In this document: in pieces, positions 7,421 to 26,502 of the stretch
How positions within the stretch are numbered: the first letter of the stretch is position 1
How the letters are laid out: each line of letters opens with the position of its first letter
Source: Hansfordia pulvinata
Taxonomy: Eukaryota; Ascomycota; Sordariomycetes; Xylariales
Direction of reading: 5' to 3'
Assembly (NCBI GenBank): GCA_006538405.1
Contig: BJKQ01000002.1
Span: 4,365,770-4,429,769, forward strand
Length of the DNA: 64,000 nt
Notes under the pieces: generated by a model
The model's database searches: none
Told to the model about the DNA's origin: nothing
The model's input: the letters and a program-made list of their open reading frames with translations, nothing else
Program-made: the position numbers and the translations under genes

Positions 7421-9800
7421 GGAGTCACGGGCGATTCTATACGGGGCCGCCTGATGAGTGGAGGAAGGACCACGAGGCTTCTTGAAGCTCCCAGTACCAC
7501 AGGTGTGGACTAGCACATTGTGTTTCGTAAGAATGACGATCTGCAACTTTCTGAAATATTGTATTTTACAGCCGAGAAGCGGGTTAAACTGCTTTCCTCC
7601 TGCGCGGTACTCGTATCACGTAGCCCACAACGGTTCTGTACCAATAAGCACCGCTTCAAGCGGCCTTGCAGTCATTCAAAGTCCCTGTGATACAGCCGAA
7701 ACCTCGCGGTGGCTAACTGGCTTTCCGTGGTGTTTCGGGGTCAGTACACTCAAATGGTTGTCAACCTCCTGTCTGGCCCCTCGCCCCTCTCGTGCGATCG
7801 CGCGACTGGCACGTAAATTCAGCGAATGCCCGGCAGAACATAGACCGCCGCGACTGGGCGCCGATCAGACAAGCTGCCATGAGCGGTGACAACTGCGATG
7901 TTTGCTCGTAGCTCGGAAATCAGCACCAGGCGAAACCGATTATAGTAAACTGATCGTGCTTATTCGATTTCGGGCGTAGCCTGACCATGTCAGCCATTGC
8001 ATTGGGTGCCCTGTCAGCTACGAGTATTAGACTTGAGCCGCAAGCTTGGCTCAGTCTATTTCCTAACGGCGCATTTGGCAGCATACGGGTACGAGTATGT
8101 CGACGTGCTGCATGATGCGAGGCTAGGGACACTCTCGGGATTTGCTGTCAATAACTCTTCCGGTGGTCCCCCTGACCTTGATTCGTGATACGAGTAAGCA
8201 ACTTGGCCGGAGCTGGGAAGCAGTGAAGGCCCACACGAGTATGCTGACAATTCACAGGGAAGAGCTCTAAGGAGATGGATCAACATATCAGAAGGAAAGA
8301 CAGTGGAATAGCAAGTTTGGATCACTCAGTATGGTCCACTGGGCACCAGAGGCGCACGCGGGACTATCTTCAGGAGAGCTGACGCCCAATCCAGTTCCAT
8401 CTTAGGCGAAGTGCCCTGGAGGGTCACCTATGGCTGAGCGACGAACATAGTACAGCTGATCAGAACCGCGAGCAGTCTGAATGTTTATGAGGATGGTGGA
8501 TGGAAAGTCGGGAGCCCGGTTACGAGTACAGAGAGGCGACATACCCTGGCGGAGATGGCCATATGTATCTGCGTAATACGCACCCTACTAATATGTCAGA
8601 CGACTTTCAGACCAGCCATCTCCATGGCAGGGTCTGGCTGAATATATGCGGATAGGATATCGAGACAACCTATGCGACTGGCAGCCGGTTATACTGTCAA
8701 TCTATCCGGAGCGGCGATGCAAGCACTGCCATCCCCGCGCCAGCTTGCAAAATCTCGATAGACTACCAGACACACGAGAGACCGGCACCGATAGCAGTCC
8801 TACCTCATTACGACGACTCAACGCAGTCAATAAACGAAAGGAGCCCGTGCGGTCAGCAAACTCGGCGATGCACATGATCGAGGAGCAACAGTCCCCAAAT
8901 CGCTGGTTGCCAACGGTCGACACATGGGAAGCGAGTCCCCTACTAGGTACATAGGTGCAGAGCAGTAGGTGTGAGACACCACGTTGTGACGGTGTGCGAG
9001 AGTGTTGGCACGTGCCCGGGAGGCGCAGGCCGAATGTCCGGCACTCGTACGAGACGAGTGATACTCGTAAGCCAAGGGTTCTACTCCGTTGACGGAATGA
9101 AGACCATCCATCACTGCAATGCTTAAGCGGGACGGGATACAGCCTTCATGCGCTTCGATTAGCCTCACCGCGAGTTCCAAGGCTGAGGAGAGTTGGTCCG
9201 TAATACGAGTGCCTACTCGTACTTCTCCTTGATCGAGAGAGGCAGAATCCAGGCAAGCCCCCCCCAGCTCCCGGTGCTCCCAGTGCTCCCTCACAGCTTT
9301 TCCCCTTGTTCCCTCCCTCCATGCGGACAAAATCGGAGCACGTGGGTCACGTAATTACGCATGGGAGTGCCACTGCAGCCGTTTGGGTCATCACGGTCAT
9401 GAACCCTGATCAACAGCACCCCGTTAAGAAGCCATGCTGGTCGCCAGGCCTCGACGGCGCCATGCTAGACCGTAGTGCGGGCGGCCCGGAAGGCAAAAAG
9501 CAAAAAAGGAGAGCGAAAGGGGTCGGCGGGGGGAAGGACTGGCGCTTGACTGTTTGTGATTGTCACGAGCCGAGCCGGCCCGCACGCGCGGCGCTACTCG
9601 TTGCTTATGGCGCTAGGCTGGCCGACTCTTGACAAGCCGCGAGCAGGTCGAGACAAGCCCGCGGTTGCCTGAACCGCTTCGAGGGAAGGCGATGAGGGGT
9701 TTGCGTTTGGGTCCCCGCCGCGTTGCCTCGGCTCCAAGACGCGCGAAGCAGGGCGCGCCGTGAAGCGCCGTGAGCGTCTGTGGCGCGGCGCCGGTAGGAT
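7421..9800. other. Gene-free GC-balanced intergenic region
   Basis: About 2.4 kb after the DUF1992 stop without a supportable gene. Small open frames have no recognisable domains and no coherent splice structure. The octamer TACTCGTA or its complement occurs at 7608, 8019, 8090, 8189, 8521, 9062 and 9214, far above chance. The region could contain a lineage-specific or non-coding transcript, but the sequence does not show it. Confidence 0.5.
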
Positions 9801-9837
9801 CGAGAGGAGGGAGGGGTCGATGTGGTAAATGAGCAGC

Positions 9838-9920
9838 CAGACAGGCAGGCAGGCAGGCAGGCATGTGGGCATGTGGGCATGTGGGCAAGATGGCGGGCAA
9901 GGCGGGCAAGGCGGGCAGCC
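9838..9920. repeat. Microsatellite cluster (GGCA, GGGCATGT, GGGCAAGGC)
   Basis: A (GGCA)n run is followed immediately by three copies of GGGCATGT-type units and by GGCGGGCAAG-type units, three short tandem repeats back to back. No coding meaning is apparent. Confidence 0.85.
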
Positions 9921-10181
9921 AGGGTCACCACCAATATCGAGGCTGGTCGGTCAGCCCAGGACGGCATGCTCTTCAACGACCATCCCTGCTCAGGTACTCG
10001 TACGCGCACTACGTACCTAAGATAGGTACCTGTTTCCTGGGTAAGGCACGACGGGAGTGAGCACGGGATCCCTGGGTGCGTTCGCTCGTATGAGTATTAC
10101 GTAGATAGGATTCGTCCCGTTCATACATACTGGTATCCCTGAAGAACTTCCAGAGCAGCCATGCCATCATAATGTCTGGAC

Positions 10182-10233
10182 GACGGCGGCGGCGGCGGCG
10201 GCGAGCGCTCGCAGGAACGCACGCACGCACGCG
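10182..10233. repeat. (CGG)n and (GCAC)n microsatellites
   Basis: About seven CGG triplets are followed within 20 bases by a GCAC tetranucleotide run. Non-coding, in the long intergenic region. Confidence 0.85.
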
Positions 10234-10504
10234 ACGCCGGCCAAGCAGCCTCGCAGCCTTTTCCAGAAAGCTGGATCCCGGCAGACATCCCCGCGTTCGC
10301 TAACGGACTCGAGTTACGTTGACGCTGCCACGGGGGCCTGCAGAAGCGTGTGGCAGGAAGTCCAATCGGATCGGACCCTGGAACTTACGCTGAAGCTACT
10401 GTGATGTGAGGAATGCCAATTCCCTCAAGCTGCTGCGGCTACTGCTGCGGCTGCCACTAGGAACCGGTCTGGTATGATGAGCACCATACTCGTGGTGCGA
10501 GAGG

Positions 10505-10524
10505 TACTCGTACGAGTACTCGTA
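10505..10524. repeat. Triple TACTCGTA/TACGAGTA palindrome
   Basis: Three overlapping copies of the octamer in alternating orientation (starts 10505, 10511, 10517) make a 20-bp near-perfect palindrome. A further copy is at 10809 and another at 9995. This is the densest occurrence of the word in the window. Confidence 0.8.
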
Positions 10525-10735
10525 CGCACGAGTGATAAGAGAGAAGTGGACTCATACTCGTGCCTCTGCTGCGGCGCTGGCCCCGGCCGGCAGCCCGCGG
10601 GATGCATCCATATCAGTCTTTTTGACTGGTACTCGTTGGACACTTTGATCGGGGTGGGAATAAAAAAGGAAAGGAACAGGACTCGTGCTGATGTGACGAT
10701 AATGGATGTTGATGATGGAGATTGGATCATGACAA

Positions 10736-10746
10736 GCAGCCAGCAA

Positions 10747-10777
<31 letters not shown>

Positions 10778-10978
10778 CACATTCACCCTCCCCTCCACGA
10801 GGACGAGTACTCGTACCTGAAAGGGACTCGGAAATTCCCCTCAGGACCAGGAGGGATAAGACTCAGCTGTGGACGGATCAACGAGTGAGCGAGCCAGGCC
10901 CAGCCAGCCAGGTCCAGGCAGCCAGGCCCAGCCAGCCAGCTACGCCAGCCAGCCAGCCAGCTAGCCAGGTACCAGGTT
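10736..10978. repeat. (CAGC)n-type microsatellite
   Basis: A run of about nine CAGC/CCAG tetranucleotides lies at 10738-10775. Shorter, interrupted CCAG-rich tracts follow to 10978, with a TACTCGTA octamer in between. It looks like an old repeat with decayed edges. Confidence 0.85.
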
Positions 10979-11628
10979 CATTTCCATAAATCACAGGAAA
11001 CCGGGGACAGACGGACGGACGACTGGGATACTCGGACTGGCAAATGGGGAACAAGCGACCCTACGCGTATGTGCCTATGAGCGCCAGTCCCACCGAATCC
11101 GCCCGCTCCTAATGTAACGCCCTGCTGTTTGTGCCGCCACGGCCATCTGTCGACAGGACCAGGCCGGGGCGCCAATCAAGTCATAAACCTCGTCACCTCG
11201 TCGCTGCCCGCGCGCGTGTGTCCCAGGGCCCTGCTTGCTATTTACCTTCTTCTGTGTTTCTGTGTTCTGGCTCTGCTTTCGGCCCCGTTTCCGGCTCTGG
11301 TCCTCTGTCTTGTTTTCCTCCTCCGCCTGCGCCCCCTCGTCGTGAGTACGGTGGTAAGGAAGTATTGCTTACTTACCTACTACCTGTGCCTAACCTAACC
11401 TTTCCCCTACCTACCTACCTACCTACACAGGCGTGACAGGTAACCTGACCAACCCATTGGATACCTCACGTACGTACGAGTGAGTACCTCTGGTTGTCTT
11501 GCGCACGTGCATCCCGCCGGTGGAACCCCGAACCCAAACACCGTTGGAATTGTTGGTTGTTGGCTGCCGCCCGTTCCAACCAACTTGTCCTCCCCTACTT
11601 GTCCAACGCCCGCGGGGCGGCCCGCGAT
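10979..11628. promoter_or_regulatory. Upstream region of the methyltransferase gene
   Basis: 650 bases before the methyltransferase start. It is pyrimidine-rich around 11240-11340, followed by TACC/CTAC tandem units near 11375-11430 typical of fungal leaders. No specific operator was identified. Confidence 0.4.
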
Positions 11629-13565
11629 ATGGATCCCCAAAAGGCCCGTTCTCAGAGCCTGCCAGACGGGCCTACGTCGCCCCTGCACTCGCCGCTGCCG
11701 CCGCCGACGCCCACGCAGTCCCAACTGCGCCCCAGGCCCTCGTCGTCGGCCAGGTCCGCCCTGACTGAATCCGACCTGTCCGAGTCGTCCGTCAGTCTGC
11801 AGGCTACCGATTTCAATGTACGCGCTTCCCACCCCCCTTCCCCCTTCCCCCACCCTTCTCCCTTCTTAACCCGGCTCGCTGGCGCCCCTATGTGATCTGA
11901 TGATCTGGTCCGATCTGATCCGACTAACCGGCTGACTTGGCGATGGTGACGCACTGCAGGAGTTCGAGACGAGCGAGGGCTTCTGGCCCGGTCCGGACTC
12001 GGAGGATTCCGATGCTCCCGTCCAACCCAGTGGCATCAAGAGGTAGGGTGGACCGACCGACTGGCTGACTGCTACCCATCTCGGTGCACCCGCTGATCGT
12101 GCCTACAGAACCTCCAAGCCGGCTGGCTCGCGATTCTTCAGGTCGATGATGCAGAGATTCGGCAGGTCCTTCAATAAAAGTACGCTTGCCTGCCCGACGT
12201 CTGGCCCGGTGGGACGTCCGATAGGGGATGCCGTCCAATTGCTCACAGTACCACCAATTCTTATCCTTTAGGCTACGATTACCTCCCGAACGACGCCGTA
12301 GGTAACGCCTCGTTTTCCACAGCTGCGGCTGCGCTGACTCATCGCAGCAAGAAAGGGACAGGAACAGTAAGACCACCGTTGCCCCAGGGGCGGGAGGAAC
12401 GCCACGCTGACGCGCCCAGTATTGCAACATCGAATCATCACAGAAGTACTAGACGGGCGGCTCAGCCTCGCTCCTGTCGTCAGACCAAGGCGCGTGTTGG
12501 ATGTTGGGACCGGCCCGGGTCTCTGGGTCCTGGTATGTCTCAAACCCGCATGCACTGTACTGCACTGCACTGCACGCACGGCAGAGGCGCAAATCGTTCG
12601 CTAACGTTGAGTGCCGTACGAGTAGGATTACGGCAAGTCTCGGTGATGAACCGTCGTCACACAAAGCCCTGCTCCTGCTGACCTATCCAAAGCGAAAAAA
12701 CATCCAGAGGTAACCGTAGTCGGCATCGACGTGGAGCCGGTGCGCCTCCCGGTCAGGCCGCCGAATGTGCAATTCTCAACCGCCGACATACGCGGCAAGA
12801 GGTTCGAGGAGCCCTTTGACCACATCAACGTGCGCATGCTGGGCAACGTGCCGTGGAGGGAAGAGCTTGTCAACGACATGTACGAGAACTTGCAGCCAGG
12901 GGGCTGGGTCGAGTTCACCGAATGGGTCATGGTTGTACAGTCCGGGGACCGTTCTTTCGAAAACACGGCATTGCGTCGGTATTGCAACCTGCTTGACGAA
13001 GGTGAGCATCCTACCCAACCACCCAGCCGGGCATCCAGGGGAGCCCCCCTCGCACGCCAAGTCGCTGACAGCACAGGCGGCCGCCGGCTGGGAATGAACA
13101 CGATGTATCCGACAGAATATAAGCCACTCTTGGAGAAGAGGGGTTTCGTCAAGATTGCCGAGAGGAAGTATGCCGTGCCACTCAACCCTTGGGCCCCGGG
13201 CAAGAGGCTCAAGGTCATTGGCGAGATGATGTGCGAGAACCTGCTCTCGGTCATCGACGCTATTTCCCTCCCAGTGTTCACCCATGGACTTGGCTGGTCA
13301 CCGAAAGACCTGGAGGCGCTCTTGGAGAAGGTGCGCAAGGAAGTTGGGAACACGGATCTGCATGTCTATTGCACGCTGTAAGGCTTTCCCCCGCTCGGCG
13401 GTCTTCTCTTGCTCGACTAACGGCCATCACAGAATGACCGTGTACGCGCAGAAGCCGAGAGACAACGCGCAGTCCTCGTCCTCGTCTCTGCAGTCGATAC
13501 CACAGGGACGACGACCTTCCTCCCTACAGATCTGCTTGGACACAGTGCAAGGGCCTGTGTCCTAG
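11629..13565 (+). CDS. SAM-dependent methyltransferase, LaeA/UMTA type, about 9-10 exons
   Basis: Class I methyltransferase of the large fungal LaeA-like/UMTA group; target unknown. Supported exons are 11629..11817, 11960..12042, 12109..12179, 12272..12297, 12348..12366, 12420..~12533, ~12693..13001, 13077..13377 and 13433..13565. The low-complexity Ser/Pro-rich N-terminus leads to YDYLPND, then LQHRIITEVLDGRLSLAP, SAM motif I VLDVGTGPG, VVGID, LQPGGWVEF and a C-terminal MTVYAQKP. The last introns are clear: 75 nt in frame at 13002-13076 and 55 nt at 13378-13432. The junction between motif I and KKHPEV (12534-12692) is uncertain. The obvious donor GTATGT and the acceptor after CTGACCTATCCAAAG differ in phase, so a micro-exon (about 12592-12616) or a one-base error is needed. 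It is convergent with the lipase. Confidence 0.85.
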
Positions 13566-14330
13566 GCTGGGCAGCAGCGGGAAATTGACCCCCCAAGCAC
13601 CCACAGCGTGCTGTGCTACGATCGCACTGAGCTATCGAATTGATGATACCCCCGGAGTTCAAAACCGACAACTTTGTATTTACGATGCGCATGAGTGTCA
13701 GATGCCATGGTAGCAATATTTTTCCATTCCATTTCCATTTCATATGATCATACCAAATTGAAGTCTTGGCTTTTCTCTCTTGCCTCTTGGCCTGCCTCTT
13801 GGAGCCCAGAAAACCCACACTTCTAGGAAAAACGGTTTTGGTATATAGAGTATTTCCAACGGAACACTTCTCACATACGACCATACCATCTGGAAAATTC
13901 GGGATCCCGTCCGCTCTCCCATAGACAAGCCAGATAGGGCCGGATTAGTAGTTGGGTCGGTGACGACCAGCGAATCCCCGGTGTTGTATGTTTTTGAGGA
14001 TCTCATTGTCTTCTGATTTTTTTCGCCGTCACTTCGGCAAGAGTCCTCTCCCCCTTTTCTTTTATTCGAGGTCTCCTTTGTTGCCCTTCTCGTCTTGTTC
14101 TCCCGCCTTCTCTTCTTTGTCTCTCGCGCCGTGTCTGATCTGAGCGGTCTGCTTCTGCGGCCAGCCCAGCCAACGTCCCACAACAGAGCGCGCACGCAGG
14201 TACATCACAGCATTGAAACGGGGCCGATAAATTCAACCATCAGCTTTCGCGGGCGTTTGTGAGATTACGGTAAATAGCGAGTACAACGATACGGCAGCCT
14301 TGGCAACCCGCAAGCCCCAGCGTGCCCCCT
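13566..14330. other. Convergent intergenic region
   Basis: 765 bases between the stop codons of two convergent genes; both 3'UTRs should lie here. T-rich tracts near 14030-14110 may serve transcription ends on either strand. No gene recognised. Confidence 0.4.
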
Positions 14331-15788
14331 TTACGCTGTGCCGTAGGCGTATTGGTTCCATTCAAGGTACCAGTTCCTGTCCCTCTGGAATCGCGAGATG
14401 TCAAAGGCCGGCTCGTGTTTGACGGTCCGGCACCCCTTGCTCGCCTCCACCCCGGAAAATCTGTCCTTGATCCAGTCCAGCCAGACCTGCTGCCCGGCGA
14501 AGAGGACCGGTGTGTGATCCACGCCCTCAAACTCGGCGTATTCGATCTGGGCGCCGGGGACCGCTGCGCAGGTCTCGTCGACGGCCGTCCGAGTGCCGGC
14601 CACGTCAAGAGCCGAGTCGCTTGTCCCGTGGAGGACGAGCAGCGGACCAGCGAACGGCTGAGCGACCACAGTGGTCAGCTCTCGCCACGCGGACGCGTAC
14701 CAGGACTCGTTCCACCCTGGCCGCACCAGGTCCGAGTCGGTGAAAAGCTCAGCAGCTACTGACTGGCACCCTTGGAGGTCCTGGAGTAGCTCGACCAGGC
14801 GGACGCCCTTCTCCGTGAGCCATTCGCTGTAGTCGAAGGTTGGGAAAACCGACTTGACGCCAATGGCGACGCGGCTGATGATGGAGTTGGCGGCCGCCTC
14901 GGTGGGCTCGTTCTTGACCGCGTTATGGAAGTCGGTCCACGGGGATCCTGGAATGGTGCCGAGGTAGCCCTTCCGTAGCTCCTGGGCGTTGTCATCATCG
15001 CCGGCCAGCACCTGGGCGGCCCCCCAGGCAGCACCACCGCCCTGCGAGTGGCCCATGACCACATACTTGCTGCCAAGCTCGTCCCACGCACCCTGGGCAG
15101 CCTTGACTGCGTAGAGTATGTCCTTCCCGGAAGCCTGGTTGGCTAGATACTGGTGGGGCACGAAGTCGGTCCCGTCGTGGTCGACCCCCAAGCCGGCGTA
15201 GTCTGGCGCGACGACGACATAGCCCTGGGTGGCGGCAGTGTATATCATGAATTGGTACCAGAGGTTCCGGATGTGGCTTGGCCCACACTCGCCTGACCAT
15301 CCCGAGGTGCCGTGGCCCCAGCCGATCACGGGCCAGCCGTCGTTGGAGGCGAACCGGCGAGGCGCATATGGCCAGAGCACAAACGCCGAGGCGGGCACCG
15401 TGCTCCCGTTGGCGTTCTGCGATGTGAACAGGATCCGGGATATGGCCGTGGTGGGCGCGATGGTGTAGAATGAAGTATTGGTGTATTGCTCAACTTTGAG
15501 GATCGAGCCAGGCGCTGCTTCGCTCCAGTTGCTGGGGAGGTCGGTGTAGAACGGGTCAAGCCTGACCGACGTGCCGGCCCAGTTCGACCGCTCGTAGTTG
15601 AGTGCCGTGAGGACTGCGTCGGAGAGCTCTCGAGACAGCCCGGCCTCGGAGATCCTCTGCGCGGCCGTGGCCGGGTTGTAGGGCCCATGCGTGGCGTTGA
15701 AGGTGTTGTTCTGCACCTTGGCTTCAGGAAAAGCTCCGGCCGCGACTGTGGCAAGGCTCGAGGCCAGCATACAGGATAGGAGTCTCAT
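14331..15788 (-). CDS. Secretory lipase (LIP family, alpha/beta hydrolase)
   Basis: Probable extracellular lipase/esterase. The single exon encodes 485 aa from ATG 15788, where a typical signal peptide begins (MRLLSCMLASSLATVAAGA); the longer frame upstream would bury this signal, so I reject it. The fold is the fungal secretory lipase family known from Candida. The nucleophile elbow GHSQGGGAA has Ser at ~248, HGTSD supplies Asp at ~391 and GVDHTPV supplies His at ~425. The oxyanion/lid region GHGTSG is at ~158-163, and several N-x-S/T glycosylation sites are present (NNT, NAT, NWS, NTS, NGS). No frame problems. It is convergent with the methyltransferase and shares nothing obvious with the nitrogen cluster next door. 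Confidence 0.92.
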   Translation of the reverse strand: MRLLSCMLASSLATVAAGAFPEAKVQNNTFNATHGPYNPATAAQRISEAGLSRELSDAVLTALNYERSNWAGTSVRLDPFYTDLPSNWSEAAPGSILKVEQYTNTSFYTIAPTTAISRILFTSQNANGSTVPASAFVLWPYAPRRFASNDGWPVIGWGHGTSGWSGECGPSHIRNLWYQFMIYTAATQGYVVVAPDYAGLGVDHDGTDFVPHQYLANQASGKDILYAVKAAQGAWDELGSKYVVMGHSQGGGAAWGAAQVLAGDDDNAQELRKGYLGTIPGSPWTDFHNAVKNEPTEAAANSIISRVAIGVKSVFPTFDYSEWLTEKGVRLVELLQDLQGCQSVAAELFTDSDLVRPGWNESWYASAWRELTTVVAQPFAGPLLVLHGTSDSALDVAGTRTAVDETCAAVPGAQIEYAEFEGVDHTPVLFAGQQVWLDWIKDRFSGVEASKGCRTVKHEPAFDISRFQRDRNWYLEWNQYAYGTA

Positions 15789-16747
15789 TTTTTTTTCTTT
15801 CTGAGCCGAGGACACAAGTGTGGCGTATTTCATCATCGTAGCTGAGGGCAATGCTGGCAATTTGTACCCTCTCAACATTGCTTGCCGAGAACACCCAACC
15901 CGACGGCTCTCCCCACGTGCCTGTCCGTCGGTCTTGTCGCCGAGCCCGAGCCCGTCTCTGTGCCAAGAGAGTCATCATGGGTAGCCGGCTCCATCGTCAT
16001 GAGTTCCGTACGTGGTCAGTATACCCAGCCTCTTCCTGGTCTCTTAGCTTCATCGCGTTGCGGGAGAAAGGTCGTCGGCATACCCGTATTGGCTAATTTG
16101 CGGGGTGTTTCCCACGTGGAGAACGCGTTCTCGCAGGGATTTGCAGATGGGAGATGACTAGCCGGGGTAACTCTCCTCTCTTTTTGTGGGTGCAGTTGGA
16201 GCAATGCCGAGTTGCTCGCCCGTCCTCCGGGCCGGTAGGCGGAGAAATCGCGGGGAACCTGCGGAAAAGGGCCGTGTCAAGAGAGCTACTCGTGTGGAGG
16301 GGGCCTGGCACGCCTGGTTAATCGCTCAATACCCCACGATGATCAGCCCTGGCCAGGCCCTTGCGAACAGATCAAAGGTCGCTGCTGGAGACTGCACCGG
16401 ACAGACGCCATGAATGAATCTCTGGGGAAGCATTCTGCAGCTGCCTCCAAAATACCCAAGCTCGCGTCGACGACGTGCACGCGCTTGCCATGAAGTCCGT
16501 CGGCGGTTCCGAGATGGTCTGATTCACCTGAGCTGGTTCGACCGATGGTGTTCGAGCAATGTGGCAGAAGTATGGAGCGGATCACGCGACTGGCATTACC
16601 AGCTGCTCAATCATGGAGGCATTGGGGAACACCACGACAGTGGCCAGCGCGGATTCCGCTGTGTACGATGAGATGGCTTGCGTAGGGTATCCCCACAGCT
16701 TCCAAGACTCAGAGGATATGTCCAAGCATTCTATCAAATGGTATACA
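15789..16747. other. Intergenic, lipase promoter to NCS1 3' end
   Basis: 959 bases holding the lipase promoter (reading leftward) and the 3' flank of the permease. Short open frames exist on both strands but none shows a domain or splice pattern. Confidence 0.4.
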
Positions 16748-18587
16748 TCAACCTTCCCGGGTGCCAAGGATTTCCTTTTGCTTCTCGTTCTCGCTCAAGT
16801 ATGCCTCTCCCTGGTGGACCCTCTCGGTGCCATCGACCACTTCGACGTCCTCATGGACAGAGTAGGCGATGAGGGTGTCTAGCGCCGGGAAGGCCCAGTT
16901 GAGGGCGGCATGAACGGCAAAGGTCGACACAAATCCGTACAGGTAGAACATGTCGTAGAGATAGGATGCTCCGCCGATCTGCAGCTGGGGGTTGACCGCC
17001 GAGGCCAGGCCCGGGAGCAATGGAACAATCCCAACCAGGAGGGCCACGACTGCACGCCAGTTGGTGCCGGCCGCACTGCCGTAGCTGTACCTCGCCTTCT
17101 GCCGGTAGAGCGCCGGGACATCGATGGCCCGCTTCTTGACAACCCAGTAGTCACAGGCCAGCAAGGCTGCGATGGGGGCCAGGAAGACCCCAGGGCCCCC
17201 ATGAAGTTGAGCAGAGACTCGGCCGAGCTGACGATTTTCCACGGGACCATGACCCAGCACGCCGTGAACGTGACGAGGATGGCGCCCCGGCGGAGGTTGA
17301 CGTACTTGGGAAACAGGCACGCCAGGTCGTTGGAGCAGGAGATGACGTTGGCCGACAGGTTGGTGCCGATCTGCGCCACACACCACGAGAGGCCGACGAA
17401 GAAGGCAGCGGCGCGGCCACCGGGGCCTTCCCAGCGAGAGGCGAGGGCCAGCGGGTCCCAGATATACTCGCCGTAGACAACCTTGGCACACGACGTCCCG
17501 ATGATGCCGAACACCCCCAGGGACGTCATGAGGAAGGGCACGAAGAAGACCTGCCAGTAGACGCCCCTCTCGTGCTTCATGTAGCGGGTAAAGTCGGCCA
17601 CGTTGGTGCCCATGGTGGCCCAGCCGCCCGTCATGGAGCTCATGGAAGACACAATGAGCCACGCCCGCGTCGAACCCGTCACGGTCGGGCTCTGCACCCA
17701 GATGTCCCCGGCGCCGTTGGCCATGCGCGCCATGCCGATCACAGTCCCCAGGGCACAGGCGATGACGAGAACGGCCTTGAAGACGAAGAACCACCTGAGC
17801 CTGTAGGGGTGAATCAGGAGGAAAGGGAACTGGACCGTGAAAAAGACAAAGTGGGATACCATCTGCTGGGTCGTGATCCCGGCGGACTCGGGTAAGTGGT
17901 TGGGGATTCTGGCATCGTCAGCCGTCGCACGGCAGGGCAGGGCGTTGAGAGGGGGGGGCAGGCAGCGGTACGCACTCGAGAAACGACGGCCAGATGGCCC
18001 GGATGATTTGCGTCATGGCGGTTGACCCCGAGTACGATTGTATGGCTGCTTCCGTCAGAAACGCCACCTGGAGCAACGGCTGATATACTGACCATGCCAG
18101 AACAGAGCAGTCACCATGCGGATGACGACCGGGAACCGACTGAAAATCGAACCGAAGCTGGATCTTGCAATCACAGGGAAAGGGACGTGCAGCGCAGCCC
18201 CGGCAGCGCCGTTCAGGCACAAAGGCACCGTTATGGTGATCATGCCCAGGATCAAACAGTAGAGAGCCTCGCGCCTGTCCCACTCCGTCAAGTCAGCGTC
18301 TGCCCGCGAGGCAAGAACCAGGTAGGTGGGGAACGTTACCAGGTGAGGCCGACGGCGATGATGGCCGACGCCCCGGCCCAGCTCTGGGCAGAGAGGCCGT
18401 CGCTCATCCAGTACCCGAGTATTGTCCATCCGGACCAGGTCCGCTGTTCCGGGGGCGTGACATCGGTATCTCGGTTACTCCAGGTATTCTCGTCGGCGAA
18501 CGTGACTGTCTGTTTCTCGAGAAGCCACCCTTCTTTGCGAGTCTTGTTCGCCAAACCCCGCCTGATCGAGTGTAAGAGCTGAGCCAT
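16748..18587 (-). CDS. NCS1-family nucleobase/allantoin-type permease, 4 exons, frameshifted
   Basis: Plasma-membrane symporter of the Fur-like NCS1 group (uracil, uridine, allantoin, thiamine-type substrates). Exons complement(18340..18587, 18093..18274, 17976..18045, 16748..17908) join in phase with introns of 65, 47 and 67 nt. Key stretches are NRDTDVTPPEQRTWSGW before helix 1, SDGLSAQSWAG, AIIAVGLTWREALYC across intron 1, and the later ANVISCSNDLACLFPKYVNLRRG; about 12 hydrophobic segments are visible. In exon 4, after SLLNFMGAL, the frame breaks. The expected GVFLAPIAALLACDYW follows in another frame, and adding one base to the four-base C run at 17188-17191 (G on the coding strand) restores it, giving ~553 aa. 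It is divergent to the dioxygenase, suggesting co-expression. Exact substrate cannot be read from sequence. Confidence 0.92.
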
Positions 18588-19243
18588 GTTAGACAGGGGA
18601 GGGAGTCAAGTGCACCACGGTATGTCTCTGCGCCAGGTGAGTAGCCTATATCCATCATGACCATCTCGGCGAATGCTGTGGTATTTACATTGGTCTGAGG
18701 CGTACGCTTTTCCTCCATGTCCCCAAGCTTTGGCGCACGCTTCCCCGCGAGGCGAGGCCCGGATCGAGCCTCTGCTCTCTAAGTCGCAGATAAGATAGGT
18801 AGCTTCTCGTCGGAACTGGACTTCCATTCCGAACCGGGCGCCCTCAATCAGCTCGCAATCACAGCACCTTGCGACGACACATGGCTTGGGACTTGCCTAC
18901 TCCCTTGCCGATAGGACCCCTGCAATCGCTTCGCCGACGGGAGACGGGTCGTTCTTATCTGCGGCAGGACGACTCGCCGGCGGCCCGTCCGTTGGTTGTT
19001 ATCAACAGTGGGGCGGCACCTTCGGTTGTTACTGGGGCGTGCCGAACCGGGAATGCCTCTCTATGACGGACCAGACCGGCTGGCCAGTATACGTCGAGCG
19101 AGACGATGATTTATGAGGCCCCAGCACCCTGTACCAGAGCAGCCCTGATGGTTATCTTATCAGCCAGTGCCTGGTAGGAATCAGATCGAGCAGCAGCGAC
19201 CACCATCACCACCACCTCCACTAACACCATCATCACTACCACC
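18588..19243. promoter_or_regulatory. Divergent promoter with clustered GATA-factor sites
   Basis: 656 bases between the permease and dioxygenase start codons. HGATAR sites occur as an overlapping pair AGATAAGATAG at 18788-18798, CGATAG at 18909-18914, AGATAA (complement) at 18955-18960, and a second overlapping pair on the complement at 19152-19162. GATA pairs of this kind are the binding pattern of AreA/NIT2-type nitrogen regulators. CAC/ACC-rich leader sequence precedes the dioxygenase ATG. Confidence 0.65.
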
Positions 19244-20343
19244 ATGAGTTTCACTTCGTTCGCCGGTAACCAGAGGACCATCTCGTCCGACACGGCCAGA
19301 AAAGCCGGATTCAACGAGATCCCCGTCATTTCTCTGAAATCCCCCAGAGACACGCTGCTGGAACAGCTTCGGGACGCCTGTACCCGAGTCGGCTTCTTCT
19401 ACATCAAAGACCATGACGTGCCGCAGGCCAAGATCGACAGGCTGTTCCAGACGGCCGAGCAGTACTTCGCCCAGTCCCCCGAGAAGAAGAACGAGATCAA
19501 CTACAAAAATTCGCGCATCCTGCGAGGCTACGAGCCGCCGGCAGAGGTTCGCACGGACGAGACTCGCAAGCCTGATCTGAACGAGGCGTTCAACTGGGGC
19601 TATGAGAAGAGCCTCGATCCCCTGTGGGATGCCTCCAAGAAGGAAGCTCAAGGTAAGCCGGGGCTGGCCCCGAGCCCAGCGCGTGAAAACACGGATCGCT
19701 GACAGAGTCAGAATGGGCCGACAACCCCATGTCGGGGCCGAACGCGTGGCCGGACATGCCGGGATTCCAGGAGGCCGTGGGGAGCTACTACGCCGAGCTC
19801 CTGGGCCTCGCGCGTCAGATGATCAAGCTGTTCGCCGAGGTCTTGTCTCTGCCGCCCGACTTCTTCGACAGCCTCGTCTCGACCCCGGGGGCGATGGGCC
19901 GCCTGATTCACTACCCGCCCCAGGAGTCGTCGAACGCGGACGCGCTGGGGATTGGCGCCCATACCGACATTGAGTGCTTCACGATCCTGTGCCAGGGAAG
20001 CGTGCCGGCGCTGCAGGTCCTCAACAGCGCGGGGGAGTGGATCCAGGCGCCCCCCATCCCCGGGACGTTCGTGGTGAACATTGGAGACCTGCTGGCCAGG
20101 TGGACCAACGATCGGTTCGTGTCGACGGTGCATCGCGTGTGGAATGTGACGGGACAGGAAAGATACTCGATCCCCTTCTTCTTTGGCACCAACTACGACG
20201 CGACCATCTCGACGCTGCAGTCGTGTCTCGACGCCGGGGGCAAGTCCAAGTACGATCCTGTGCTGGCGGGAGACTATGTGTGGAAGAGGCTCTCGGCCAG
20301 TCGCAGCGATCAGAAGGAGCTGAGGGTGTCGGCTGCTGCGTGA
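19244..20343 (+). CDS. 2-oxoglutarate/Fe(II)-dependent dioxygenase (IPNS-like), 2 exons
   Basis: Cytosolic non-haem iron oxygenase of the isopenicillin-N-synthase-like family, which includes fungal thymine 7-hydroxylases. Exons 19244..19652 and 19706..20343 (53-nt intron, phase 1) give 348 aa. The N-terminal DIOX_N half runs from IPVISL to about residue 125. Iron ligands are H222 and D224 in AHTDIECF and H279 in STVHRVWN; R289 and S291 in RYSIPFFFG bind 2-oxoglutarate. The MSGPNAWP block just after the intron is characteristic of this fungal subgroup. Its place, divergent from an NCS1 permease and upstream of ureide-cleaving enzymes, suggests it oxidises the imported nitrogen compound. Thymine or another pyrimidine is plausible but unproven. 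Confidence 0.93.
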
Positions 20344-20897
20344 AAAATGTCTTTGTACGTACCGAAATCGATGGGAGATATTTGTTAGTAGAAGCCATCA
20401 TCGGTTCCAAGACTTGCGTGACATACGCGTACACGACACAACTCCGCAAGAGGCATGCGTCGATCTTGCACCATCTTGATGAGTGCGTGTGCCCCTACGG
20501 GTAGCTATCTACGAGTATCCGTTGGTAGGGGGTCGAAGGTAGGGGTCAGGCCCCACAGTTGAAGACCTGGCCTAGACCAAGATATTCAATCCCGTCCTAT
20601 CCTATTCTCATCCTAGGCAATCGTGTCCAGTCGATCGGAGTCTCCCGATAGCGGAGAAATCCCCGGACAGCGTGGAAGACCTGGCTGGCCAGCTGTGATC
20701 ACGAGCACAGGCGAGCCGCCGCTGCATTATAACCCGAGACAGCGCCAGGCTTGCGACGGACTGGACTTGGCGCCTGACGGGTATCCGTACGTTCGAATCG
20801 GAAGCACCCTCACCAATCGCAGCCGGCCGCAACTCTGTCTGTATTCTCTCTCTCTCTCTCTCTCTCCCTCTCCTCTGTTTCCCACTCTGTCAACAAG
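20344..20897. promoter_or_regulatory. Intergenic upstream of the allophanate hydrolase C-domain gene
   Basis: 554 bases. A CT dinucleotide run (about 20849-20876) ends ~20 bases before the next start codon, a common fungal core-promoter/leader feature. One CGATAG lies near 20645 and one TACGAGTA octamer at 20510. Confidence 0.45.
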
Positions 20898-21356
20898 ATG
20901 CCGCCGCCGCATGGGCAGAACTTTGTCTCGGTGGTGGTGGTCGGGGCGCACTTGACTGGGTTCCCTCTGAACCGGGATCTCGTCTCCCGCGGCGCTTCTC
21001 TGGAGAGCACGGCCGTGACATCCCCGTGCTACCGACTGTTTGCCCTTCACTCGGCCGGCGGCGTGCAGAAGCCCGGCCTCAAACGCGTCGCCAGCGGAGA
21101 GGGCGTGGAGATTGAGGTTGAAGTGTGGAGGCTGCCCGACAGCCAGCTCTGGAGCTTCATGTCCACCATTGCCCACCCGCTCGGTCTCGGGTCCGTCGAG
21201 CTCGAGGACGGCGGCTGGAGGCTCGGGTTCATCTGTGAGCCAATTGGACTGGCTGATGCCACTGACATTTCGGGCTTCGGCGGATGGAGAGCCTACAGTA
21301 AGGCGACGGCGGGGGCAGCAGCAGCAACAGCAGCGACGACACCTTCGGCTGACTGA
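20898..21356 (+). CDS. Free-standing allophanate hydrolase C-terminal domain protein
   Basis: Small 152-aa protein equal to the C-terminal domain of allophanate hydrolase (AtzF/DUR1,2 type). In the bacterial enzyme this domain turns over the N-carboxycarbamate released by the amidase domain, yielding ammonia and CO2. Matching blocks in order are VVGAHLTGFPLN (~14-26), YRLFAL, KPGLKRV, EVEVWRLP, HPLGLGSVELEDG, and GFICEPIGL...DISGFGGWRAY near the end; an Ala/Thr-rich tail follows. It is a complete single exon from ATG 20898. Normally this domain is fused behind the amidase domain. Here it is on its own, while the amidase half is encoded at 24314-26502. This suggests a two-polypeptide allophanate hydrolase. 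Homology is strong by eye; catalytic competence is inferred. Confidence 0.88.
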   Translation: MPPPHGQNFVSVVVVGAHLTGFPLNRDLVSRGASLESTAVTSPCYRLFALHSAGGVQKPGLKRVASGEGVEIEVEVWRLPDSQLWSFMSTIAHPLGLGSVELEDGGWRLGFICEPIGLADATDISGFGGWRAYSKATAGAAAATAATTPSAD

Positions 21357-21788
21357 GCAAAGATAGTGTTGGGTACGTTACCTAATATTTCGAGTCGGTA
21401 GAACTGCGAAGCAATACATGGATAACCGGAAGGGATCGCGGAGACAAGTGACCCCTGTCGCCTAGGTACCGTCACGCACGCTACTCGTACATGTACTACA
21501 TATACCTACCTGCCACCTATCCGATGTACCTACGGTATCCAATAACCCATATAGCCCGGCCCGTGAATGACCGACCGGCTGCCATTGTGTCGTGCTGTGT
21601 GGTGTGGTCTGGTGTTGGTGAAGGAGGGAAGGAGGGCTGGAGAGGTCCCAGAACACCCCGCCTTGCGCCTTCCGCGACGTGGGCACCCACATGGGATAAA
21701 GCACCAGTGTCAGCATCAGCCTAATCATCGTCATTAGCAACAACGACGACAGCAACCAGAACCACGACCACGGCGATATCGCCCAAAA
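21357..21788. promoter_or_regulatory. Promoter region of the Zn2Cys6 gene
   Basis: 432 bases between the C-domain gene and the regulator. Contains one TACTCGTA octamer (21482) and CA/AC-rich sequence before the ATG. No clear GATA site. Confidence 0.4.
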
Positions 21789-23675
21789 ATGTCGGCCCGA
21801 GCGAGGCCGTGCGATATGTGCCGCCTGCGCAAGACGCGGTGCGTCAGGCAGAACGACGAGGCCCAGTGCATCCTCTGCGCCTTCCACGACAAACGCTGCA
21901 CGTACCTACGAGGTCCTCGGCGCAGGCCGCTTCGCATCGACCAGTCTCCTCCAGCCGTGTCCCGAGAGCAGCAGAGGCAGCAGCAGCAGCAGCAGCCAGA
22001 CGATGACTCGTTTGTAGACGAGCTTCGAGACGAGCACATGGTGGTCAGCCCCGAGACCGAGACCGAGACGGACCCGGGCGGACCCGGGCCCGAGCCCCAG
22101 CAACACTGCCACGAAGCGCCGCTCTCGCTCCTGGACGGCACCCTGGGGCTTGATCTTGACACGCACCCGCAGTTCGTCGGCACCTCGAGCCATCGCGAGC
22201 CGGCCCTGCTGGACCTCCAGGCCGGGCCCGAGGGTGCAGGTGCGGGTGCGGGTGCGGGTGCAACAACAGGTGCAGGTGGCCCTCTTGATGGGGTCGCCGG
22301 AGGGGCCCGGACGCGCTCTCGCCGGGTCAACGACCGCAACGTCTTCCTCATCTGCCCCGACGACGGGGCGGCATCCGAGTCGCAGCGACTCAACGACTGC
22401 GACGCCATCGAGGAGAGCGTCGGGTTCATGGGCAAGGCCCTAGTCCAGCTCTACTTCCGGCTCGTCCACGCCAGCTTCCCGGTGCTGCACAAGGGCGTCT
22501 TCCTGGCCAAGCATGCCATATCGCACCAGATGTTCTCCCCGCCTCTACTGGCCGCCGTCTACCTCGTGGCGCTCGACTATCACGTGTACGACTCGAGCTT
22601 CGGCGAGCAGATGGCCGGCTTCAACCTGGCCAACGGCCAGATGACGCTCGAGGCCCTCGCCGACCGCACCATGGCCGAGGACCTGCGCAGGCCCAAGCTC
22701 AGCACCCTCCAGGCCGGGCTCCTCCTCCTCCAGCGGTCCCGCGCCGGTGCCGAGGCCGGCAACTGGATGTTCGCGGCACAGATGATCGCCCTGGCCCAGG
22801 GGCTGGGGCTGCATGCGGACTGTCAGGGCTGGGCCATCCCTGACTGGGAGAAGAGCCTGAGGCGACGGCTGGGCTGGTCGCTGTACATGCAGGACCGATG
22901 GGGAGCTTGTGTCCACGGCCGCCCGCCGCTTCTGAGCGACGACGACTGGGATCTGCAGGTCTGCACGCCGAGTGACTTTCCAGAGCCTCCGGCCCCGGAT
23001 GAGGTGCACGTGGTGGGCGCAGGCCGCCATGTTGACACGGATTCGGGAGCCGAGCTGTTCATCCGGCACACCGAGCTGGCGCAGATCTTGACCGATGTCA
23101 TCCGCCAGTTCTATGCCACGGCGGCCACCAAGCCTGGGGGCCGTCTCGACTGCATGGGACCCGTCGCCGCCGTCGAGATGGCGAAGCCCCTGATGCTGCA
23201 GCTGCGCAGTTGGCAGGCCGGGCTGCCGGATCGGCTGCGCCTCGAGTCCACCGAGCCGAGGAGACTCTCCGCCAACGCCTCGCTGCACGTTGCGCACCTG
23301 GCCGTGGAGGTGGCTCTCCACCGGGCCCTTGTGAGACTGCTGACCCCGGCCACGCCGTCGAACCTCGCGCACGCCGTGAGGCTGGCGGCCAAGAACCGAG
23401 TGCAGAGCGCGATCGGCCTCATGGAGTCACTGCGCCCGGAGCACATGGGGGCCTTCTGGGGCGGCTCGGCGGCGTACCAGATTGCCATCGTGGGAAGCTT
23501 GACGTGCCTGCTCTGGGCCACCTCCGACAGCCCAGACGAGATGGAGTGGTGCGTCGGGCAGATGGAGGACCTGCGCTGGGTCGTGCGAGTCAGAGCTCAG
23601 GGCGCCGTGTTCATGAAGGCGGCATTGAGGCTCATAGAGGCGGACTGGGACCGGTTGGTTCTGGACCGGCTTTGA
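21789..23675 (+). CDS. Zn2Cys6 transcription factor, likely cluster regulator
   Basis: Nuclear DNA-binding regulator of 628 aa in one exon. The binuclear zinc cluster is at the very N-terminus: Cys 8, 11, 18, 27, 30 and 37 (CX2CX6CX8CX2CX6C), with basic linker CRLRKTRC and a second basic patch RGPRRRPLR. A poly-Gln tract (~65-70), acidic/Thr-Glu repeats and a Gly-Ala repeat follow, then the fungal_trans regulatory domain from ~225, with FRLVHASFPVLHKGVF, WMFAAQMIALAQGLGLH, WSLYMQDRWGACVHGRPPLL and a distal helical region. It sits in the middle of the catabolic genes in the same orientation as three of them, so a pathway-specific activator is the natural reading. The inducer and binding site cannot be seen. 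Confidence 0.93.
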   Translation: MSARARPCDMCRLRKTRCVRQNDEAQCILCAFHDKRCTYLRGPRRRPLRIDQSPPAVSREQQRQQQQQQPDDDSFVDELRDEHMVVSPETETETDPGGPGPEPQQHCHEAPLSLLDGTLGLDLDTHPQFVGTSSHREPALLDLQAGPEGAGAGAGAGATTGAGGPLDGVAGGARTRSRRVNDRNVFLICPDDGAASESQRLNDCDAIEESVGFMGKALVQLYFRLVHASFPVLHKGVFLAKHAISHQMFSPPLLAAVYLVALDYHVYDSSFGEQMAGFNLANGQMTLEALADRTMAEDLRRPKLSTLQAGLLLLQRSRAGAEAGNWMFAAQMIALAQGLGLHADCQGWAIPDWEKSLRRRLGWSLYMQDRWGACVHGRPPLLSDDDWDLQVCTPSDFPEPPAPDEVHVVGAGRHVDTDSGAELFIRHTELAQILTDVIRQFYATAATKPGGRLDCMGPVAAVEMAKPLMLQLRSWQAGLPDRLRLESTEPRRLSANASLHVAHLAVEVALHRALVRLLTPATPSNLAHAVRLAAKNRVQSAIGLMESLRPEHMGAFWGGSAAYQIAIVGSLTCLLWATSDSPDEMEWCVGQMEDLRWVVRVRAQGAVFMKAALRLIEADWDRLVLDRL

Positions 23676-24313
23676 CAACATCGGCGAAGCGAAGCTCCCC
23701 AAGCAAGCCGCCCTCCCCTGAATCGATCGACCGGACAAGTTTCATGTGGTTAACGGTGCTGCCGCCCATTCACAAACACAGGCAGGCTCTGGCATATCCG
23801 CCATGCTTCAGGAAATGTACCGCCACCCCCACCACATGATGGACGGAACGGCTCTCCCTCCTCCTCTATTCGCTCGGCCTGGCCTGGCCCGCGGGGTGGA
23901 GGTGGAGTGGAGAGGAGATGGCCCCTCCCCGCCTGCATGATACGGCAGGGGTCTTAGTGTCGACGGGGTACGTTCGCGAGATATATTGATAGTACCTAGC
24001 CTCTCGATCCTCCGGAATGCCTGATAAGCCACCAAGCTACTCGTAGCGCCGCCGTCGCCGCAACTCGCCGACGGCCCGACGGCAGGACGACGGCGCTTTA
24101 GCTTGGCCTCCGAGACCCCCAGACGACGCCGATTAGTAACAGCAGCCGCATCGTCCAGTCTCTATCGCCGGTCACGCTCGCAGCTGGTTCACGAAAGACC
24201 AAATAAACGAAGCGTGGAAGGAGAGCATCTGGTTTCACTTCGTATCACACTCACGCCATCCGCGTTTGTACGTCACACATACATCCGTCCGCCCACGCAC
24301 GTCCGCCCACGCG
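23676..24313. promoter_or_regulatory. Promoter region of the hydrolase fusion gene
   Basis: 638 bases with several HGATAR sites: TGATAG near 23987, TGATAA at 24022-24027 and CGATAG (complement) at 24162-24167. One TACTCGTA octamer lies at 24039. No other gene seen. Confidence 0.5.
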
Positions 24314-26502
24314 ATGACCTTGGCGATGGCTTCAAATCATTCACCACTCGTCAGCTTCTCAACAGCCAAGCCCTATGTCTTCGACATTATCCCTTCTAAG
24401 ACGGCGCTGGTATTGATCGATCTCCAGCGTGACTTTGTGGACGACAATGGCTTCGGATCGGTCCAATGCGGGGATCCCGCCATTTTCGCGTCAGTGCGCT
24501 CCGTCGTCGGACGAGCACAGGGTGCCCTCGTCGCTGCAAGGCAGCTCGGCTTGCACATCATCCACACTCGCGAGGGCCACGCGCCAGATCTATCAGATCT
24601 CAGTTCCGCCAAGAGAGACCGCCAGGTTAACGCCCCAAGTGGGCACCACACGATGGGGATTGGGGACGCAGGTCCCATGGGTCGCCTCCTCGTCCGCGGC
24701 GAATACGGCCATGACATTGTCGACGAATTGCGGCCCAGGCCTGGAGAGGTAGTCATCGACAAGCCTGGGAAGGGCTCTTTCTGGAAGACGGATCTGCATC
24801 GAAGACTTATGGCAAGAGGAATCACGCATCTGCTGATCTGCGGCGTGACGACCGAGTGCTGCGTCACCACCACGGCCAGGGAGGCCAATGATCGCGGATT
24901 TCAGTGTTGCATTCTCACCGACTGCACCGGGGGCTTCGACGCCACCTTTGTACGGTCCTCCTTGGATATGATCTCCGCTTATGACGGTCTCTTCGGCTTC
25001 ACAGCGTCAAGCGCAGACTTGCTCCATGCGGCGCAGAGCACGGTGCCCGCAGCCCCGTCGACGACGCCCTCGGAGTGGGATGGGCTAGATCTGTCGCTCT
25101 CCACCTTGACCACCCTATACAAGCGAGCCGCCATCACGCCCGAGCTCGTGGTCGAGTCGGTCTACCGGCGGCTGGAGGAGTACAGCACCGTCGACCCCGC
25201 GGTATGGATCTCGCTGCGATCGAAAGACGACCTAATCAAGGAGGCCAAGGCATTGTTGCATTCGATGGGCCAAGACACAGAAAGACTCCCTGTTCTCTAC
25301 GGCGTCCCGTTTGCCGTCAAGGACAATTTCGATGTCGCCGGCATGGTAACGACCGCTGCTTTCCCCGGCACCCCTACTGCCACGTCCACCTCGACGGCTT
25401 TCGTTGTGCAGCGACTCAGGGATGCGGGTGCCATCCTTATCGGGAAGACAAACATGGATCAGTTTGCAACAGGCCTCAGCGGTTGCCGCTCGCCGTACGG
25501 CACGCCGTCAAGCGTCTTCGGCGACGGTGAATTCATCTCTGGTGGGTCCTCGTCGGGCTCAGGCGTGGCGGTCGGGGCCGGACTGGTCACCTTTGCGCTG
25601 GGCACTGACACGGCGGGGAGTGGCCGCGTGCCTGCTGCGCTCAACGGGGTAGTCGGCTACAAGCCCACGAAAGGGACGCTGTCGTCCATGGGTATGCTTC
25701 CGGCCTGCCAGAGCCTTGACACGACCTCGATATTCGCCAAGTCGACTGGGGACGCTCGGCGCGTTTGGTACGTGCTTGACCAGCACGACGACCGCGACGT
25801 GTTTTCCAAAGACCCCTCTTCTTTGCCCCTTGAACTGGCCGATTACAGGCCTTTGCACGAATCTCGTTTCACCTTCGCAACGCCTCCCCCGTCACGCTAG
25901 GCAAGTGCTGCCAGTCGTATCTGGTCGCCTTTGAAGAGGCTTGTCGACTGCTGGAAGCAATGGGTGGGCGCCGCTTGGTCCTGCCTGATGAAGTGTACGA
26001 GAACACGTTTCAGAAAGCGACTGATCTGCTTTATAGCGGTAGCCTCGTGTCTGAAAGAATTGCATGCATTGGCTATTCGTTCCTCACAAAACATTTACAC
26101 GAGCTGCACCCGACAACTCGCCAACTGTTCACATCGGTACTGGGGCGAGCAACCAGGGCATGGGAGATATATGCCGACCAGGCGGCGCAAAAGGAGGCCA
26201 CCAGACAAGTCGCGGATCTCTGCTCGAAGCAACCCGGGAAAGTGGACGTCCTTGTCACCCCAACCGTCCCTTACCATCCCACCATTGCTGCTATGGAGAT
26301 GGATCCGATCAACCTCAACGCGGATATGGGAGTCTTCACACATTTTGGGAATGTCCTGGACCTCTGCTCGATTAGTGTCGGCGCTGGTACCGTGCACGAT
26401 GGCATGCCGTTTGGAATCGGTCTGAATTGCCCCACTGGTCTGGACGGTAGATTGTTCGACCTGGCCGAGGCATTTGAAACTGCTATTAACTATGACCGTT
26501 AA
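24314..26502 (+). CDS. Cysteine hydrolase (biuret-hydrolase-like) fused to allophanate hydrolase amidase domain, frameshifted
   Basis: Bifunctional ureide hydrolase of ~729 aa. Residues ~24-240 are an isochorismatase-like cysteine hydrolase with triad D36 (LIDLQRDF), K150 (IDKPGKGSF) and C183 (GVTTECCV), closest in pattern to biuret amidohydrolases and ureidoacrylate hydrolases. From ~260 on it is an amidase-signature domain of allophanate hydrolase type: K336 (AVKDNFD), S412 (GGSSSGS) and nucleophile S436 (DTAGSGRVPA), plus DPAVWISL, DQFATGL and VGYKPTKGTLSS. The likely sequence is biuret to allophanate, then to N-carboxycarbamate, passed to the separate C-domain protein. After FATPPP the frame shifts at the five-C run 25886-25890; adding one C rejoins it to VTLGKCCQSYLVAFEEACRL and the rest, ending at 26502. 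Starts at 24314 or 24326. AT-rich repeat DNA begins right after the stop. Confidence 0.9.

Follow-up and report, generated by a model that had tools for sequence, protein, structure and literature searches.

A candidate nitrogen-scavenging gene cluster around a split allophanate hydrolase in Hansfordia pulvinata

We analysed a stretch of 64,000 nucleotides from the fungus Hansfordia pulvinata (contig BJKQ01000002.1; the whole stretch is called the window), in which five gene families lie consecutively at 16748–26502: an NCS1 permease, a 2-oxoglutarate dioxygenase, a stand-alone AH_C domain, a Zn2Cys6 regulator, and a fusion of an isochorismatase-like hydrolase with an allophanate hydrolase amidase. 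All five were detected with Pfam and NCBIfam, consecutively and in the order given by the original prediction, which had been made from the sequence without database searches. We consider it probable that these genes form a nitrogen-catabolic (scavenging) module ending in allophanate. The observed basis is the gene content, the kept catalytic residues, the linkage of the dioxygenase with the fusion in other fungi, an excess of GATA sites in the promoters, one AH_C match in the genome, and no urea carboxylase found there.

In the proposed pathway, the NCS1 permease would import a nucleobase-like heterocycle or ureide, which the dioxygenase would oxidise. The product, biuret-like and probably N-substituted, would be cut to allophanate by the isochorismatase-like domain. 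The fused amidase would then take off the first ammonia, leaving the separately encoded AH_C to finish the breakdown to ammonia and CO2. The Zn2Cys6 regulator would provide pathway control and a GATA factor nitrogen control. We infer the order of the steps, allophanate as the intermediate, the substrate class, and both kinds of regulation. The features are as follows.

16748–18587, minus strand: NCS1-type nucleobase/ureide permease (PF02133; exon model with GT-AG introns)
18275–18339, 18046–18092, and 17909–17975, minus strand: permease introns (GT-AG exon model)
18588–19243, no strand: divergent promoter of the permease and the dioxygenase, with seven HGATAR sites and two CCGAACCGG dyads
19244–20343, plus strand: 2-oxoglutarate/Fe(II) dioxygenase, 348 amino acids (PF14226, DIOX_N; PF03171, 2OG-FeII_Oxy)
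19653–19705, plus strand: single dioxygenase intron, 53 bases (gene model)
20898–21356, plus strand: stand-alone AH_C, 152 amino acids (PF21986)
21789–23675, plus strand: Zn2Cys6 transcription regulator, 628 amino acids, with a Fungal_trans domain (PF04082)
21810–21899, plus strand: six-cysteine motif of the Zn2Cys6 regulator
24314–26502, plus strand: fusion of isochorismatase-like hydrolase and allophanate hydrolase amidase (PF00857, PF01425)
24365–25048, plus strand: isochorismatase-like domain of the fusion, biuret/triuret-hydrolase-like (alignment to TrtA, 6xix, and to the biuret hydrolase chain, 6xjm)
25076–26502, plus strand: allophanate hydrolase amidase domain of the fusion, in two frames, with no AH_C attached
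26503–64000, no strand: AT-rich block (about 20% G+C) with dinucleotide indices like those of repeat-induced point mutation (RIP), directly after the fusion gene

Split Allophanate Hydrolase and the Supply of Allophanate

Both domains of the fusion (PF00857 and PF01425) were present in all 120 fusion relatives listed. The catalytic Lys-Ser-Ser of the amidase is complete in the window and is kept in 120, 118 (Thr in the other 2), and 120 of these relatives, respectively. The catalytic-site residues continue past the frame break in this gene: LLYSG and SER lie in the second frame, and their Y and R are kept in 118 and 117 of the 120 listed relatives, the rest being gaps. We take the Tyr and Arg of this LLYxG...ER stretch to be the allophanate-binding residues. 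Allophanate hydrolase residues were sought in passages of PMC5770610 and by literature search and were not found.

The match to TIGR02713 (allophanate hydrolase; cut-off, 511.05 bits) gave 284.7 and 124.3 bits for the window pieces and 412–457 bits for intact fusions, which fall under the cut-off, as expected, because no AH_C is attached. The match to PRK08186 stopped at profile position 445–453 of 600, before AH_C, in all eight intact fusions scanned, and for this reason the amidase/AH_C split looks general. The stand-alone AH_C scored 154 bits against PF21986 (gathering cut-off, 27), and its nearest solved relative was allophanate hydrolase (4ist/4iss). It was the single AH_C match found in the genome (46.8 Mb, 63 contigs), inside the cluster. 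Stand-alone AH_C proteins with fungal names made up 4 of the 120 listed (P0125, P0130, P0132, and P0200). According to a passage of PMC5770610, allophanate hydrolase works through its N domain and its C domain in turn. Several of the listed fusion relatives (P0001–P0120) carry the public name glutamyl-tRNA amidotransferase subunit A, and one that of urea carboxylase; their domain content lends these names no support.

Urea carboxylase was ruled out as the source of allophanate: its domains PF02682 and PF02626 were not found when the genome was searched in all six frames, a search whose control matched in 6 of 14 genomes. Because these domains were not found, the genome seems unable to turn urea into allophanate, yet it retains AH_C and an allophanate-hydrolase amidase. 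The fused isochorismatase-like domain would be the obvious source.

Isochorismatase-like Domain of the Fusion

The best solved relatives of the isochorismatase-like domain were the triuret hydrolase TrtA (6xix, 210.6 bits) and a biuret hydrolase (6xjm, 207.8 bits), the latter of which we take to be the Rhodococcus enzyme. In TrtA, Asp24, Lys129, and Cys162 are catalytic, and Gln202, from the other subunit, contacts biuret and triuret (passages of PMC7948467). The catalytic Asp-Lys-Cys is kept in the window domain and in 118 (2 gaps), 120, and 120 of the 120 listed relatives. Glu72 and Lys132 of TrtA are also kept, Phe35 and Glu160 are as in TrtA, and Ser134 is as in the BiuH consensus. These features suit simple biuret or triuret scavenging, in which the fusion would be a biuret hydrolase and allophanate hydrolase in one protein and the dioxygenase an adjacent gene with a different function. 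Some fungi are reported to metabolise triuret (a passage of PMC7948467), and homologues of biuret hydrolase are reported from a wide variety of microorganisms (a passage of PMC7700744, citing other work).

However, the window domain has Tyr in place of the substrate-contact Gln (Q202 of TrtA, Q215 of BiuH), and at positions 41, 187, and 205 it differs from both enzymes. Tyr or Phe occupies the Gln202 position in 87 of the 120 listed fusions (Tyr, 69; Phe, 18), the others having Gln (31), Asn (1), and His (1). In the maximum-likelihood tree (midpoint-rooted for drawing only), the 31 Gln rows and the Asn and His rows formed one clade of 33 with a support of 99. The NCBIfam model of biuret hydrolase (NF050097; cut-off, 370 bits) scored 226.5 bits with the window domain and 206–231 bits with the eight intact fusions. 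Because of the Tyr at Gln202 and the NF050097 score below the cut-off, we do not class the fusion as a biuret hydrolase, though it may work like one, and biuret itself is not supported as the intermediate. The simplest inference from the sequence is that the substrate may be biuret-like with a bulkier N-substituent.

Thozetella sp. PMI_491 has both a Tyr-type and a Gln-type fusion (P0001 and P0096). The two types can coexist in one strain, presumably with different substrates.

Linkage of the Fusion and the Dioxygenase in Other Fungi

Two proteins were taken to lie on the same contig when the lengths of their longest contigs were equal, and 120 fusion, 120 dioxygenase, and 119 AH_C rows (P0221, for which no contig is given, left out) were compared among the matches listed. 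The fusion and the dioxygenase shared a contig in 12 cases, against 0.115 expected (lengths shifted by 1–200 bases, 400 offsets); the pairs came from nine named fungi and three metagenome contigs. Locus tags were consecutive in all four pairs that could be ordered (Pestalotiopsis fici, Zasmidium cellare, Oleoguttula mirabilis, and Meristemomyces frigidus), and the Dothistroma locus numbers cannot be ordered. All 12 linked fusions were of the Tyr/Phe type (12 of 87 versus 0 of 33 others; Fisher p 0.035, uncorrected for kinship), with six in each of two large clades of the fusion tree. The recurrence of this linkage and its confinement to the Tyr/Phe type count against simple biuret or triuret scavenging, as do the residues described above, and we regard that explanation as unlikely.

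The original prediction had been staked in part on conservation of the neighbourhood in at least one related genome, and the 12 shared contigs provide this for the dioxygenase-fusion pair, which appears to stay linked even in distant fungi. Conservation was seen for this pair and is weak for AH_C; joint inheritance of all five genes is putative.

Promoters and Regulation

HGATAR is the consensus of the nitrogen GATA factor AreA, as given in a passage of PMC8478523. The 656-base promoter between the permease and the dioxygenase contained 7 HGATAR sites against 1.48 expected, a count reached by 1 of 1000 shuffles. Pooled, the four cluster promoters contained 13 sites against 5.36 in shuffles (reached by 0 of 1000), with a density of 5.71 per kb versus 1.38 per kb over 1–16700, coding sequence included. 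The whole-window count was below the shuffle mean (190 versus 270), a figure dominated by the AT-rich block.

The CCGAACCGG dyad occurred in two identical copies, at 18829 and 19042, both in the divergent promoter and none elsewhere in the window (0.23 expected in the window; two copies reached by 2 of 100 shuffles; motif picked post hoc). By inference only, these dyads are candidate sites of the Zn2Cys6 regulator.

Dioxygenase and Its Fungal Relatives

The AlphaFold model of the dioxygenase (predicted local distance difference test score, 89) was closest in fold to TraH, thymine-7-hydroxylase, and a reconstructed ethylene-forming enzyme, with SpoC also near; dozens of dioxygenases with other substrates scored nearly as high. 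The dioxygenase was mapped on thymine-7-hydroxylase using the active-site residues given in passages of PMC4787775. The dioxygenase retains the ligands of Fe and 2-oxoglutarate as well as Arg190 and Phe292, the stacking residue; Glu122 of thymine-7-hydroxylase falls in a poorly aligned stretch. The fold and the retained residues would agree with salvage of thymine or a related pyrimidine, in which the dioxygenase is a thymine-7-hydroxylase and the other genes are incidental. However, such salvage yields uracil and requires no allophanate hydrolase. Furthermore, the thymine contacts Asn87, Tyr217, and Asn294 are replaced by Leu, Ile, and Gly in the alignment, which leaves Phe292 as the sole one of four contacts kept; yet the N294A variant of thymine-7-hydroxylase is still active and its Tyr217 is replaceable by Phe or Trp (passages of PMC4787775). 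We consider thymine salvage highly unlikely.

The names given by the sources to fungal relatives of the dioxygenase include HxnY, ppzC, and isopenicillin N synthetase. HxnY belongs to the nicotinate cluster and has no reaction assigned in passages of PMC9304392. The other two names, together with the close folds of TraH and SpoC, might place the genes in a secondary-metabolite cluster. This explanation is very improbable: allophanate hydrolase and AH_C are catabolic, the GATA-site excess speaks against it, and no synthase backbone was found in eight flanking frames, which are part of the frames of 1–16700, the AT-rich side being outside the test. These eight frames comprised a Phe-tRNA synthetase, a mitochondrial carrier, an RNA polymerase subunit, a DnaJ-related protein, a lipase, and three without matches.

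A metagenome fragment (P0260; 204 amino acids on a 1,361-base contig) was 99% identical to the window dioxygenase over 59% of its length and represents a close relative of this fungus sampled elsewhere.

Bacterial Loci Around Dioxygenase Relatives

We compared the loci around bacterial relatives of the dioxygenase (36–48% identity), taking the best 80 of at least 536 confirmed stretches. Nine of these loci carry cytosine-deaminase homologues; NCS1 permeases and PucR purine regulators occur in 6 each, XdhC in 2, and xanthine-dehydrogenase subunits in 1. At least one nucleobase-type gene was present in 12 of the 80, a raw count with no random-locus baseline. Sequence clustering placed one ABC-transporter ATPase family in 29 of the 80 and one permease family in 27; both resemble the NCBI 'putative B6 ABC transporter', below its cut-offs. 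A bacterial locus with the whole pathway was sought, and none occurred among the 80. These contexts argue for a substrate of the nucleobase-like class rather than for the same pathway.

In six loci (L039, L040, L051, L054, L055, and L067), a bacterial dioxygenase relative, an NCS1 permease, and a cytosine-deaminase homologue occur together. They possibly represent an undescribed bacterial route of nucleobase oxidation.

Frame Breaks and the AT-rich Edge

As assembled, the fusion has one net single-base frame break at about 25868–25900, within the amidase domain, and the permease has one net one-base frame break near 17188–17191. The permease matched PF02133 in three pieces (45.1, 52.3, and 137.4 bits; Pfam gathering score, 23.5), and the profile is unbroken at position 356 across the frame change. 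Because both breaks lie in or next to short G/C runs, assembly (sequencing) error or recent decay is possible.

An intron in place of the fusion frame break was considered and rejected. Twenty-one GT-AG introns (40–200 bases, donors 25600–25897) are able to rejoin the frames, and each removes 17–67 residues, 3–25 of which are invariant in ten relatives. The nearest intact fusion relatives are of the same length across the break site and are intron-free. The mildest candidate, of 50 bases (25799–25848), may still apply.

By BLAST, the identity of the fusion to its two nearest relatives was 73–74% before the break and 63–65% after it (68–74% and 56–65%, respectively, for five relatives). Five pairs of intact relatives dropped by 1.6–6.1 points over the same places (MAFFT). 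The larger drop in the window leans slightly toward relaxed constraint. The AT-rich block starts within a few bases of the fusion stop codon, at 26503, and runs to the window end; its TpA/ApT ratio is 1.23, versus 0.64 in 1–26500, which is RIP-like. The possibility that this block cut off the fusion was ruled out, since intact relatives stop at about the same place.

The two frame breaks, the adjoining block, and the drop in identity would also be expected of a decaying neighbourhood, in which a RIP-mutated block borders two pseudogenes, the permease and the fusion, and the strain has no working pathway, an explanation compatible with the proposed pathway in other fungi. However, both breaks lie in or beside G/C runs, where assembly errors are frequent, and the frames of the dioxygenase, AH_C, and the regulator are open. 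The catalytic-site residues that persist beyond the fusion break and the linkage in other fungi, which decay here leaves untouched, also stand against it. We judge decay to be rather unlikely. The pathway of the sequenced strain may itself be inactive, with two genes perhaps broken; intact copies of the fusion are present in relatives.

Neighbouring Genes and Further Searches

Next to the cluster, at 14331–15971 on the minus strand, a long open frame encodes a secretory-lipase-type protein (PF03583). No viral contigs were found when they were looked for. The binding residues of FurE were sought in PMC10788122 and were not found there.

Discussion

The original prediction of nitrogen scavenging around a split allophanate hydrolase is supported by the one AH_C, the lack of a urea carboxylase match, the linkage of the pair, and the GATA sites, whereas biuret as the intermediate is not supported. 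Several observations weigh against a scavenging pathway ending in allophanate. For 108 of the 120 fusions, no dioxygenase contig among the listed rows matches. The fusion and the dioxygenase are on different contigs in Phlyctema vagabunda (Gln type), as are those listed for Venturia inaequalis (Tyr type). The fusion and AH_C share a contig just once (6,674 bases, P0002 and P0121; 0.105 expected), the two being the second-best fusion match and the best AH_C match, both from one source. The dioxygenase and AH_C share none among the listed rows, and the contigs given for them in Pestalotiopsis sp. NC0098 differ. The promoters of AH_C, the regulator, and the fusion are not individually enriched in GATA sites (counts as high as those observed occur in 501, 613, and 125 of 1000 shuffles, respectively), and most thymine-contact residues are not kept in the dioxygenase. 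In the 80 bacterial loci, neither an allophanate-hydrolase amidase nor an AH_C match was present, the isochorismatase match was limited to a weak one in a single locus, and the window permease pieces matched none at E 1e-4; therefore, the bacterial NCS1 proteins are distant. Both the permease and the fusion are frame-broken as assembled. Finally, a urease was found in the genome and could finish the breakdown without allophanate hydrolase, because allophanate itself can decay spontaneously to urea (a passage of PMC7700744).

As to the chemistry of the scavenging pathway, we tentatively propose, as a possibility somewhat short of an even chance, a fungal oxidative route to allophanate that works without urea carboxylase and is undescribed. 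The dioxygenase would act on an imported nucleobase-like heterocycle (a triazine such as oxonate, a hydantoin or allantoin, or some other ring derived from purines) and yield an N-substituted biuret, and the hydrolase-amidase fusion with its aromatic pocket would channel the product to ammonia, with AH_C acting in trans. By our own chemical reasoning, pyrimidines and purines have no biuret unit, triazines such as oxonate and 5-azauracil do have one, and oxidative C-C cleavage of hydantoin would yield allophanate directly. No literature linking 5-azauracil with biuret was found.

A DUF1688 gene, which we take to be of the URC4 type, is present on another contig (G000 C15:1204186–1205865). Given the role of URC4, this gene suggests that uracil has its own route in this genome. 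One matched piece of the gene is interrupted by two in-frame stops, possibly because it reads through an intron. The URC pathway of uracil likewise draws nitrogen from a pyrimidine, whereas the enzymes of the cluster differ from those of URC.

In regards to other known systems, the bacterial biuret/triuret route (TrtA, BiuH, AtzF) resembles the cluster in that an isochorismatase-like hydrolase feeds allophanate hydrolase and that Asp-Lys-Cys and Lys-Ser-Ser are kept. In contrast to that route, the cluster has a hydrolase-amidase fusion, a separate AH_C gene, Tyr in place of Gln, an adjacent dioxygenase and NCS1 permease, and a eukaryotic host. The yeast and fungal urea amidolyase DUR1,2 likewise comprises allophanate hydrolase with an AH_C domain, whereas AH_C is split off in the cluster, and since no urea carboxylase was found in this genome, the allophanate must come from elsewhere than in DUR1,2. 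Neurospora thymine-7-hydroxylase and HxnY of the Aspergillus nicotinate cluster share the dioxygenase superfamily, the fold, and the N-heterocycle context, but the dioxygenase of the cluster differs in its thymine contacts and is linked to an allophanate-hydrolase fusion. Among the open-licence PMC papers listed for allophanate hydrolase, biuret, isochorismatase, and dioxygenase in fungi, no title or abstract start describes the fusion or the cluster, and neither do passages of PMC10805520, PMC7948467, PMC2409186, PMC7928374, and PMC7700744. The words biuret and allophanate do not occur in the text of PMC6158834.

The change from Gln to Tyr or Phe and the dioxygenase linkage mark fusions that probably do not act on plain biuret. 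If the proposed pathway is true, many fungal proteins now called 'allophanate hydrolase' or 'glutamyl-tRNA amidotransferase subunit A' would gain a testable function, and fungi would have a widespread means of drawing nitrogen from a heterocycle of soil or plants, with entry at allophanate and no need of urea carboxylase.

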